A DNA stretch of 36,099 bases from Methanothermococcus sp. SCGC AD-155-C09. GTDB lineage: Archaea; AGJL01; Methanococci; Methanococcales; Methanococcaceae. Both the position numbers and the translations under genes were made by a program. Below the pieces are notes generated by a model. It was not told the DNA's origin. It searched no databases and was given only the letters and a program-made list of their open reading frames with translations. This document shows, piece by piece, positions 5,530 to 17,214 of the stretch. Numbering within the stretch: the first letter of the stretch is position 1; each line of letters opens with the position of its first letter. The DNA is taken from NCBI GenBank assembly GCA_019561555.1, contig JAHEQB010000079.1:1-36099 (forward strand), in the 5' to 3' direction.

Positions 5530-5587
5530 GGTGGATGATGATCGGAGTAGCTTCTGAGTTATGATGATAGATGGGCGAGCTGACACC
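5530..5587 (+). ncRNA. C/D box guide sRNA
   Basis: All four boxes are present in order: C box ATGATGA (5535-5541), D' box CTGA (5554-5557), C' box ATGATGA (5561-5567) and D box CTGA (5580-5583). The two guide stretches are 12 nt each, the usual archaeal spacing. A terminal stem GGTG (5530-5533) pairs with CACC (5584-5587). Archaeal C/D sRNAs direct 2'-O-methylation by the L7Ae-Nop5-fibrillarin complex five bases upstream of D or D'. The D guide (TAGATGGGCGAG) could pair with an rRNA segment containing TCGCCCAT; that target is inference. The RNA sits between divergent thiL and the PgpA-like gene. Confidence 0.85.
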
Positions 5588-13671: not shown

Positions 13672-13904
13672 ATTATTTTTTAGTTATATTCTATTTCTTT
13701 TAATATTTTTATTTATTTTTTTTAATTATTTGATAATCAATAATTTATTTTTTAAATTATTTATTTTTTAATTTATTTTTTATTTTTTTAATTTTATAAT
13801 TATTTTTTTATTTTTTATTTTTTAATTTTTTTATTATTTTCTTTGATTTATAAAAACTTAAATAAATATTTAAAATCCCATAAGGACTACATAGTCCCAA
13901 TCAA

Positions 13905-13935
13905 CACTATCCTGACAATTTGTCTTCGGATAGTG
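13905..13935 (-). promoter_or_regulatory. SECIS element of hdrA
   Basis: On the minus strand the 8-bp perfect stem CACTATCC/GGATAGTG is followed by the internal loop GAA opposite A. The apical part is GACAAATTGTC, a short stem with a small loop. It lies 150 nt after the hdrA stop, unusually far for this set. A separate palindrome (GGACTATGTAGTCC, 13897-13884) follows it. Confidence 0.82.
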
Positions 13936-14084
13936 CATCATCTTGCGGGATTGTATAACCACCCTAATGTTAATTTAATTAATTTTTATTTTTATTATTT
14001 TTTTATTATTTTTTTAATATTTATTTAATTCTTAGTAATTATTAGCCATATAGTATATAGGTTGTGCCATCCCAAATTATAGTT

Positions 14085-16061
14085 TTAATGATTTACTAAC
14101 TGATGGGCCTCAAATATTCCATCGATTATTGAGATTATCTGCTCATCTCTGTAGTATCTCAATTGCATGGCCCCACTTGGACAGGCTCCACAACAGGAAC
14201 CACATCCTTTACAGGCAATATCATCCACAACTGCTATTAGATGCCCATCTTCTTCTTTATAGGATATTGCATTGTAGGGGCACATTGCTCCACAGATTTC
14301 ACATCCACCACATAAATCTTCATCTGCTAAGGCCCTTATCATTTCTATGTTAAATTCTCCCTTGGACATTGGAATTGCCACAGCACTTGCTGCACCCTTG
14401 GCCTGAGCCACGGTATCTGGAATATCCTTAGGTCCTTGAACTACACCGGCAATGGCTATACCATCAACTTTGGTATTAACAGGAGCCAATTTTGGGTGAA
14501 GTTCCTTTAGGAATCCATCTGGGCTAATATCCAATCCCATCATTTTTGCCAAGTTCTTTGTTTCAGGCCTTGATACAAGTCCTGCAGATAATACCACAAG
14601 ATCTGCCTCAATCTCAAGGACTTCTCCCATTAATGTATCCTCCACTCTAACAATCAAGTTTTTAGTTTCTGGATCTTCAATGATGGTCCCTGGTCTTCCC
14701 CTTATGAACTTAACTCCAAACTGTTCCTGGGCCCTTTGATAGTATTCCTCATAACCTTTACCAAAGGATCTAATATCCATATAGCAGATATATACCTCGG
14801 AGTTAGGGTCGTGCATTTTCATTAATTGGGCATTTTTTAGAGCAAACATACAGCAAATCCTTGAGCAGTATGGATTACCCACCTTTAAATCTCTGGAACC
14901 TACACACTGTATAAATACAGTTCTATGTGGATGCTTTCCATCACTGGGCCTTATTTCATGGCCACCTGTGGGTCCTGCAGGGTTAATCATTCTCTCCAAT
15001 TCTAAGGTTGTTATGACATTATCATAAACCCCATATCCATACTCCTCCTTTAAGGTGGCATCAAATTCATCATAGCCTGTTGCTGTAATAATTGTGCCCA
15101 CCTTTAATTTAATTTCCTTTGGCTCTTGATTGAAATCAATTGCCTCAGGACCACAGGCCCCTTCACATAATCTACAATCTATACAGTAGTTTTTATCGAT
15201 GGTATATATCAATGGGACGGCTTGTGGGAATGGCACATATATGGCTTTCCTAGTACCCAATCCTAAATCAAATTCATTGGGCACCTCTATTGGACACACT
15301 GCGGCACAGGCACCGCATCCAGTACATTTGGATTCATCCACGTATCTTACCTTTTTTTCGACAGTTACTTCGAAATTACCAATATACCCGGAAATTTCCT
15401 TTATTTCGGCATAGGTAATTACTTCAACATTAGGGTGGTTTGCTACTGTAACCATCTTAGGGGCTAAAATTCACAGGGCACAGTCATCAGTAGGGAATGT
15501 CTTGGCCAACTGGGCCATTCTCCCTCCTATGGATTCATCTTTATCTAACAAATAAACCTTATAACCTTGATCTCCTAAATCAAGAGCGGCTTGTATTCCA
15601 GCAATACCTGCTCCAATAATCAAACAGGATTTATCTACCTCTACAACCTTTTGAGGTATGTCTTCCAATCTTTTGGCTCTCTCTACTCCACCAGCAACTA
15701 ATTCCATGGCCTTTTTAGTTGCCTTATCTACATCATCCATATGGACAAAGGAATCCTGTTCTCTAATATTTACAAATTCTAAGTAATAGGGGGATAAGCC
15801 TGCCTCTGCAATACATGTCCTAAAGGTAGGTTCGTGAATCTTAGGAGTACATGCTGCAACAACTATTCTATTCAACTTATAATCCTCTATTGCCTTTTTA
15901 ATTATTTTTTGACCTGGGTCAGAACAATAAAAGGGATATGTCTCTGCATACACTACTCCATCAAGTTTTGAAGCAAATTCCTTTACGGCTTCACAATCCA
16001 CGAAACCATTAATGTTGGCACCGCAGTGGCAAACAAAAACCCCAACTCTGGGGCTATCCAT
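14085..16061 (-). CDS. hdrA: Heterodisulfide reductase subunit A, selenocysteine-containing
   Basis: HdrA is the FAD subunit where electrons from H2 are bifurcated to ferredoxin and to the CoM-S-S-CoB heterodisulfide. The 658-residue product has VGVFVCHCGANI near the N-terminus and an FAD-binding GAGIAGIQAAL around residue 153. In-frame TGA 15473-15471 (residue 197) lies in the context FPTDDCAL-Sec-ILAPK, the place of a conserved cysteine. Four ferredoxin-type motifs follow (CTGCGACAAVCP, CIDCRLCEGAC, CGGCEICGAMCP, CKGCGSCCGACP). The start at 16061 is chosen because GGAGGTGA precedes it. A methionine 25 codons upstream (16136) would translate the leader repeats. HdrB and HdrC are not in the window. 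Confidence 0.95.
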
Positions 16062-16129: not shown

Positions 16130-16266
16130 ATCCCAATATACTAAATGTAATATGTTAAATACCTATTATAAAAATATATGTCTCAATAATATTAATAAGA
16201 TTTATTAAATATATTATACATAATTACAATTTATTCATAAGTTAATTAAAATCAATAAACGAAAAA

Positions 16267-16275
16267 TATATATAT
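16267..16275 (+). promoter_or_regulatory. TATA box for the candidate structured RNA
   Basis: TATATATAT, preceded by the purine-rich CGAAAAA, lies about 30 bp upstream of ATGC at 16295-16298. That arrangement resembles stable RNA promoters of methanococci. Inferred from sequence. Confidence 0.45.
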
Positions 16276-16296
16276 TAGAAGTATTAATTAGATTAT

Positions 16297-16410
16297 GCAC
16301 GGTGTGGGACAGTGGCAAAATATTTTGTTACACCCCCAATATGCTGCTGATAACACCGTGTGTTGGAGACTCGTTCTCCTAAACCCCATTCCCACCCCCT
16401 CATACCCCAG
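16297..16410 (+). ncRNA. Candidate structured non-coding RNA
   Basis: This is a GC-rich island in very AT-rich surroundings. It folds as a long hairpin: CACGGTGT (16298-16305) with ACACCGTG (16353-16360), then an internal loop GGGA/ATA, then CAGTGGCA with TGCTGCTG, then a smaller top stem closing TTACACCCC. A second hairpin, GGAGA/TCTCC with loop CTCGT (16365-16379), and a C-rich tail follow. There is no coding frame, no T-loop of a tRNA, no C/D boxes and no clear ACA box. I do not recognise the family. It lies between divergent hdrA and carS; the 3' end is a guess. Confidence 0.55.
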
Positions 16411-16677
16411 ATTATCAAAGAATAATTTTAAATGATTTTTTATTGGAATTTAAATATATTCAACACCCCCAATCTATTTTATCCCCTCCCACTTTGTTTC
16501 GTTATAATTTATTTTCTTATATATTATATTTTTTTTAGAGAATTTGAGTATATTGTAAAAAGTTAATATAACATATATCCATATATATAAATATATAAAA
16601 ATATTGTTATTTTGGATATATTTAAATAAGTATTTAATAAATTAAAAAAAATAAAAATTATAAGTTTGAGGGATTTT

Positions 16678-17214
16678 ATGGATATTATTTATTTAATAAT
16701 TAACTCATTAATATATATTCTACCTGCATATACTACAAATGCCACCGCCTGTATATTTGGAGGAGGTAGGCCCTTAGACTCAGGTAGGATGTTCATAGAT
16801 GGAAGAAGGATAATAGGAAATGGGGTTACCTACAGGGGGACCTTTTTTGGACTGTTATGTGGTGTTATTGTTGCCATTTTAGAGGGTATTTTTTTTAATT
16901 TGGATATTTTTGGAAATATTGCATTTCATTACAATATCCTTGAATGGGCATGGATTGGTTTATTGTTATCCTCGGGGGCACTATTTGGGGATATGTTAGG
17001 TAGTTTTATTAAAAGAAGATTAGGATTTGCCCAGGGAAGGCCTGTCCCCCTATTGGACCAACTTGGTTTTGTAGTATTTGCCATATTATTTGCCTATCCC
17101 TTTGCACCAATACCTTGGGATATGATTATTTTGTTGCTAATTATAACTCCATTAATACATTTACTTAGTAATATTTTGGCCTATTTATTGGGAATTAAAA
17201 AAGTATGGTGGTAA
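16678..17214 (+). CDS. carS: CDP-archaeol synthase
   Basis: CarS activates 2,3-bis-O-geranylgeranylglycerol phosphate with CTP to form CDP-archaeol in membrane lipid synthesis. This 178-residue protein is almost wholly membrane-embedded, with about five hydrophobic segments. It shows the family motifs LPAYTTNATACIFGGGRPLD near the N-terminus and GALFGDMLGSFIKRRLG (about residues 101-117) with GRPVPLLDQLGFV after it. The ATG at 16678 follows GAGGGATTTT. An in-frame TTG at 16666 falls within that ribosome binding site and is rejected. The gene stands alone. Confidence 0.92.
   Translation: MDIIYLIINSLIYILPAYTTNATACIFGGGRPLDSGRMFIDGRRIIGNGVTYRGTFFGLLCGVIVAILEGIFFNLDIFGNIAFHYNILEWAWIGLLLSSGALFGDMLGSFIKRRLGFAQGRPVPLLDQLGFVVFAILFAYPFAPIPWDMIILLLIITPLIHLLSNILAYLLGIKKVWW

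Follow-up and report, generated by a model that had tools for sequence, protein, structure and literature searches.

A conserved structured RNA gene beside the selenoprotein gene hdrA in Methanococcales and its possible role as a trans-acting riboregulator

Comparison with described RNAs

Trans-acting intergenic small RNAs (sRNAs) of methanogens are described for Methanosarcina mazei, i.e., sRNA154, sRNA41 and sRNA162 (PMC5867862; for sRNA162 PMC3510493), and sRNA154 bears an anti-ribosome-binding-site sequence in a loop (PMC5867862). The RNA gene considered here, which is situated between hdrA and carS on a contig of Methanothermococcus sp. SCGC AD-155-C09 (the window, i.e., the whole stretch of 36,099 nucleotides that was analysed), likewise represents a stand-alone methanogen RNA with hairpins; however, no relation in sequence or structure to the M. 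mazei sRNAs was found, the order is a different one, the neighbour is hdrA instead of nitrogen genes, and the targets are predicted ones. In Firmicutes, sRNAs of the RsaA/RsaE type possess unpaired C-rich strands that suit G-rich Shine-Dalgarno sites. Such unpaired C-rich strands are shared by the present RNA, whereas the RsaA/RsaE type is bacterial and of unrelated architecture, and pairing is a prediction in our case.

The principle of discovery, a GC-rich island in an AT-rich genome, is the same as for the archaeal Hgc RNAs, which are said to have come out of a screen for GC content in M. jannaschii and P. furiosus by Klein et al. in 2002. The RNA matches none of the Hgc families archived in Rfam; unarchived M. 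jannaschii candidates may include it. Noncoding RNAs of M. maripaludis are listed in the supplement of PMC8716108. The RNA is absent from Rfam and may have been sighted earlier in the lists of Klein 2002 or PMC8716108. No description of a structurally conserved regulatory RNA for Methanococcales was found in the searchable literature.

Concerning the same operon region, the flpD RNA (RF01737) or methanogen SECIS is also a hairpin with a purine-rich internal loop. The SECIS, however, belongs to the 3' UTR of the mRNA and carries a GAA/A loop, whereas the RNA beside hdrA exhibits GGGA/AUA, is situated on the opposite strand, divergent from hdrA, and possesses its own promoter, such that it does not constitute an archaeal SECIS. 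A match to the flpD RNA itself is found in the window at 13898-13945 (minus strand), between the stop of hdrA and the next gene. It folds as CACUAUCC-GAA-GACA..UGUC-A-GGAUAGUG, i.e., in the GAA/A form of the methanogen SECIS, and in this genome looks like the SECIS of the selenoprotein gene hdrA and not like an element that regulates flpD in cis.

Locus, predicted fold and distribution

The structured RNA gene (16297 to around 16410, plus strand) stands alone in the intergenic region between the divergent hdrA and carS, in an island with a GC content of 51% on the plus strand (16300-16399), compared with 9-18% in the flanking intergenic DNA. On one side lies hdrA (14085-16061, minus strand), encoding the selenoprotein HdrA, with an in-frame TGA as Sec codon at codon 197 (15471-15473, minus strand). 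A single TGA is found in all orthologs of this selenoprotein gene that were found across the order, Cys paralogs excepted; such an in-frame TGA would make gene callers split hdrA. On the other side, carS (CDP-archaeol synthase; PF01864, E 7.6e-65) extends from 16678 to 17214 on the plus strand. A GC-rich island between hdrA and carS with no coding frame had already been claimed in a reading of the sequence alone (hereafter the sequence-only reading), and the analysis agrees with it: no ORF of at least 60 aa overlaps the RNA and no reading frame is open across the homologs, which rules out a protein gene.

In all checkable homologs (23/23), the RNA is situated upstream of Sec-hdrA on the opposite strand, with hdrA as its divergent neighbour, despite changes of the gene downstream. 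The latter is usually carS in Methanococcaceae, but three M. maripaludis-like genomes (L031, L032, L035) have a different gene in its place; in Methanocaldococcus, unrelated genes are found downstream, and cl22 is also among the downstream genes of homologs. Because the downstream gene changes while the adjacency to hdrA stays, the RNA is not a cis leader or riboswitch of that gene.

A BRE/TATA promoter (CGAAAAA TATATATA) is located at 16260-16274 on the plus strand (-37 to -23), with the TATA box TATATATA at 16267-16274 (-30) and ATGC at 16295-16298; the 5' end of the RNA is predicted at around 16295-16297. The promoter-like TATA and the ATGC start context had been noticed from the sequence alone, and the position of the TATA box turned out to be kept: a TATA-like octamer starts around 30-33 nt 5' of the first stem base in 23/23 homologs of both families (in L013, where the script chose another copy at -57, the octamer ATTATATA at -33 was read by eye).

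The 3' part of the RNA is formed by a G-free, C-rich tail ending in CCCCATTCCCACCCCCTCATACCCC (16384-16408, plus strand). This tail (CCATTCCCACCCC..TCATA, or CCAUUCCCACCCC..UCAUA in the RNA) is nearly invariant in 14 Methanococcaceae though predicted to be unpaired, in line with the C-rich tail of the sequence-only reading. Probable terminator U-tracts follow at 16426-16441 on the plus strand (T4 at 16426-16429 and T6 at 16436-16441); in M. maripaludis, tracts of U4 or longer are the terminator signal (PMC8716108). In Methanocaldococcus homologs, the C-rich tail is followed directly by T6-T7. A second C-rich block (CAACACCCCCAATCTATTTTATCCCCTCCCAC; 16461-16492, plus strand), which resembles the Methanocaldococcus tail AACACCCCTCCCCCACA, has a counterpart 22-86 nt 3' of the first tail in 11/14 Methanococcaceae and is missing from three in which carS moved away; it may extend the RNA at its 3' end or be an element of its own ahead of carS. 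An independently transcribed, Methanococcales-specific RNA of around 110-150 nt in length is predicted from these sequence features.

The conserved fold consists of two stacked stems (hairpin 1) and a second hairpin, all on the plus strand. The basal stem of 9 bp is formed by its 5' arm GCACGGTGT (16297-16305) and its 3' arm ACACCGTGT (16353-16361), and the middle stem of 8 bp by 16310-16317 and 16342-16349. Between these stems lies a 4x3 internal loop, GGGA/AUA, of which the GGGA strand (16306-16309) is identical in 23/23 homologs, and the AUA strand continues from the 3' arm of the middle stem (16342-16352, CTGATAAC motif), in which CTGA and the following AC are invariant (23/23). The apical loop is C-rich and comprises 24 nt here (16318-16341); its length varies widely, and its CCCCC (16333-16337) is invariant in 23/23. 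Hairpin 2 (GGAGA CTCGT TCTCC, 16365-16379) possesses a 5-bp stem (16365-16369/16375-16379).

Folded as a single sequence, the plus strand is modestly better than chance (z -1.9, 6/200 shuffles) and the opposite strand no better than chance (z +0.9). Since single-sequence folding is only weak evidence, the case for an RNA rests on comparison. When folded separately, all 14 Methanococcaceae homologs adopt the common shape, hairpin 2 included. For hairpin 1, the covariation set comprised 23 sequences (19 distinct rows) and 19 pairs. Standard pairs occupy 96.9% of the cells, a share that falls to 25.7-63.2% once the partner strand is slid, and changes on both sides are found at 12/19 pairs. The covariation score reaches 0.563, compared with 0.238 for shuffled alignments (0/500) and 0.183 or less for slid ones. 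Two-sided compensatory changes exist at six of the nine basal pairs in the 23 sequences; the middle stem (helices 2 and 3 of the test, 99.2% and 87.5% paired) adds six two-sided pairs. The basal stem is mostly GCACGGUGU/ACACCGUGU in Methanococcaceae, and GGCGCGGGU/ACCCGCGCC, GGUGCGGGU/ACCCGCACC or GGCGCUGGU/ACCAGCGCC in Methanocaldococcus. In Methanococcaceae, hairpin 2 exhibits two-sided changes at 7/7 pairs (alignment A6, which was itself fitted to the model); in Methanocaldococcus, it is lost or replaced by an unrelated palindromic hairpin. Of the three-part hairpin proposed in the sequence-only reading, the basal and middle stems thus stand, as they covary, whereas the apical third helix is not conserved; the second hairpin it had described covaries in Methanococcaceae. 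The same reading had suggested looking for conservation and covariation of the stems in relatives, and both are found in hairpin 1 among close as well as distant ones.

It is the unpaired parts of the RNA that stay constant, i.e., GGGA, AUA(A), CCCCC in the apical loop and, for Methanococcaceae, the tail. Every homolog possesses a C-rich loop and a C-rich tail with hardly any G. A pseudoknot of GGGA with UCCC or CCCAC of the tail is possible in 22/23, on strands that hardly vary. In L055 and L057 only, GGGTTATCAG located 3' of the hairpin matches the reverse complement of CTGATAACCC in the same RNA without a mismatch, which suggests an alternative fold in those two species.

Homologs were searched for by BLAST (DNA) and then by covariance models, the genome counts being based on the hairpin-1 model R3. 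The DNA search revealed the element across Methanococcaceae, and the covariance models extended its range to Methanocaldococcaceae. R3 matches exist in 24/36 Methanococcales genomes, exactly one in each of the 24, which belong to these two families (E 6e-14 to 2e-8), and in 0/261 other archaeal genomes at E 0.01, under stricter filters by which weak matches may be lost. Two named public contigs carrying the element are Methanothermococcus MAGs. Three of the 12 genomes without the RNA (12/36) are incomplete or have no hdrA locus (G001, G007, G032). In the remaining nine (G004, G005, G006, G008, G010, G019, G025, G031, G034), the sequence upstream of hdrA differs wherever it was read. A strict link of the RNA to the Cys-hdrA paralog is rejected, as the paralog occurs in just 12/24 RNA-bearing genomes.

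Concerning known RNA classes, Rfam 15 yields no match, be it at the gathering threshold over the region, at E<=10 for 16150-16660, or at E<=5 when ten homologous loci are scanned; ARAGORN finds no tRNA or tmRNA in the window. A box C/D sRNA is rejected, as the CUGA lies within the covarying middle stem and no box C is found near the 5' end. An H/ACA RNA is rejected as well: judged from features read by eye and from the absence of an Rfam H/ACA match, there is no ACA within 15 nt 3' of the basal stem and no GA/GA pair in the 4x3 loop. The internal loop also shows no GA/GA pattern of a k-turn. The sequence-only reading had assigned the stretch to a structured RNA of unknown family, at odds with tRNA, C/D and plain H/ACA patterns, and had proposed an Rfam scan; the covarying stems, the 24 genomes and the results of ARAGORN, box reading and Rfam all speak for this assignment. 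As expected of independent archaeal intergenic sRNAs, the RNA possesses its own promoter and a conserved structure outside ORFs. That a real conserved structured RNA gene exists here is close to certain; that it is transcribed is deduced from the conservation of promoter and structure. Elsewhere in the window, a box C/D sRNA, sR2 (RF01139, 54.5 bits), is found at 5531-5585 on the plus strand.

Proposed function and alternatives

The RNA probably acts as a trans-acting riboregulator that uses its C-rich single strands and works on other RNAs, a function that we infer and that is weakly supported. Overall, an independent sRNA acting in trans via the C-rich strands is the best explanation, with a probability of roughly 0.4, and the antisense mechanism itself is put forward tentatively. 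It is suggested because strands that are C-rich, G-free, unpaired and conserved are expected of an sRNA aimed at G-rich ribosome-binding sites. The rigid hairpin would present the unpaired C-rich loop, while the tail would stay free of structure by containing no G; these C-rich strands would pair with the G-rich ribosome-binding sites of several mRNAs, such that translation would be blocked or tuned. The GGGA/AUA internal loop might be bound by a partner protein or might lock onto the C-rich tail. The RNA is single-copy, is kept over two families and adjoins the core Hdr-Vhu electron-bifurcation operon. As a rather unlikely extension, it might constitute an ancient, order-wide regulatory RNA beside the Sec-Hdr operon, in which GGGA/AUA and the arrays of C-runs would set the translation of energy-metabolism genes, and which would be the first conserved riboregulator of Methanococcales, mostly free of Hfq. 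Methanococcales include genetically tractable model archaea and the RNA is deletable in M. maripaludis, such that archaeal riboregulation becomes directly testable.

The main alternative, somewhat unlikely in our estimation, is a protein-binding decoy, scaffold or cofactor that would act in a CsrA- or RNP-type manner through GGGA/AUA and the C-runs, without pairing to mRNAs. It would account for an internal loop that is invariant over two families while the flanking stems change, for C-runs in at least two copies per RNA, and for a Methanococcaceae tail that is nearly invariant without any long complement of tail or loop conserved elsewhere in those genomes. A single conserved long-duplex target of the Methanococcaceae tail or loop is rejected, since the complements GAGGGGTGGGAATGGG and GGGGGTATGAGGGG, the RNA itself aside, occur only as scattered imperfect sites in differing places; this also counts against the antisense mechanism. 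The candidate partner Hfq, however, is distributed over Methanocaldococcaceae and the genus g4 and is absent from most RNA-bearing Methanococcaceae; because of this absence, neither dependence on Hfq nor Hfq as a general partner is accepted, and the protein bound would not be Hfq. Control of the divergent hdrA-vhu operon by the RNA or by its transcription, in cis or by pairing with the hdrA mRNA, would tie the element to selenium and methanogenesis: adjacency to Sec-hdrA is order-wide, the sole genome with just Cys-hdrA (G019) is without the RNA, and the hdrAU-vhu-fwuB operon of M. maripaludis responds to selenium (PMC11097638). We regard this as doubtful, since the RNA is missing from eight genomes that retain Sec-hdrA, around 0.55-1.05 kb separate the RNA from the start of hdrA in M. 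maripaludis-like genomes (with a small gene between them in two), and the selenium regulon study PMC11097638 mentions no small RNA. The translation start of hdrA ranks 1st-4th in pairing among neighbouring genes at every locus; because pairing of the RNA with hdrA of its own genome is no better than with that of swapped genomes (p 0.5-0.98), hdrA mRNA is rejected as a cis target.

Two further explanations carry very little weight. A divergent form of a known class of housekeeping guide or RNP RNAs (H/ACA-like or similar) could be recognized in the GC-richness, the own promoter and the hairpins with an internal loop, yet it is most improbable given that Rfam yields nothing at E<=10, that neither an ACA box 3' of the stem nor a k-turn GA/GA is present, and that several lineages have lost the RNA. 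Slightly less probable still is an element acting at the level of DNA instead of RNA, i.e., a G-quadruplex-forming strand, as four G-runs exist on the strand complementary to the tail, or part of the promoter of hdrA or carS; the compensatory changes in the stems, the TATA spacing on the plus strand (23/23) and the independence of the downstream gene argue against it.

Pairing with translation starts

Concerning the proposed antisense action, pairing with translation starts was assessed for 376 genes of one Methanocaldococcus genome and for 348 genes of Methanococcus G018, with composition-matched shuffles for comparison. In the Methanocaldococcus sample, 21 starts pair strongly with the C-rich strands, versus 7.6 (sd 4.1) for shuffled ones, 0/80 of which reach 21; shuffling shortens C-runs, however, and the signal may partly mirror G-run Shine-Dalgarno sites. 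The Methanococcus sample yields 9 starts versus 4.7 for shuffled ones, which is not significant (p 0.14). Support for an antisense action is moderate in Methanocaldococcus and little in Methanococcus.

In Methanocaldococcus, the top site is a perfect match of 12 nt at the acd start (an ADP-forming acyl-CoA synthetase alpha-like gene), selected from the very sample on which it was first scored. A G-run at this site is kept in relatives, with 12 nt in G028 and G029, 10 nt in G024, 15 nt in G030 and 9 nt in G000 (via the loop of G000's own RNA). The G-run (TGTGGGGGAGGG or similar) is found at the acd start in L251 and L276 and in G024, G026, G028, G030 and G035 (L291-L298), just 3' of a conserved TATAAAAATTTTTCT and with 9-15 nt of perfect complementarity to the RNA tail; G-runs at this start are common to many RNA-bearing species, and are missing from the three RNA-lacking Methanocaldococcaceae and from M. 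maripaludis-like genomes. Within families, the RNA-specific match is not significant (p 0.13). A conserved TATAAAAA at around -38 of acd represents a possible promoter, and the acd mRNA may start downstream of the G-run, which would leave the site untranscribed. As a conserved target, acd is a lead only, being confounded by Shine-Dalgarno G-runs, phylogeny and this possible promoter. The TGTGGGGGAGGG motif is also found before the MNYFCRINRIKEG gene, which we take from its sequence to be desulfoferrodoxin-like, in three Methanocaldococcaceae genomes (L283, L284, L289).
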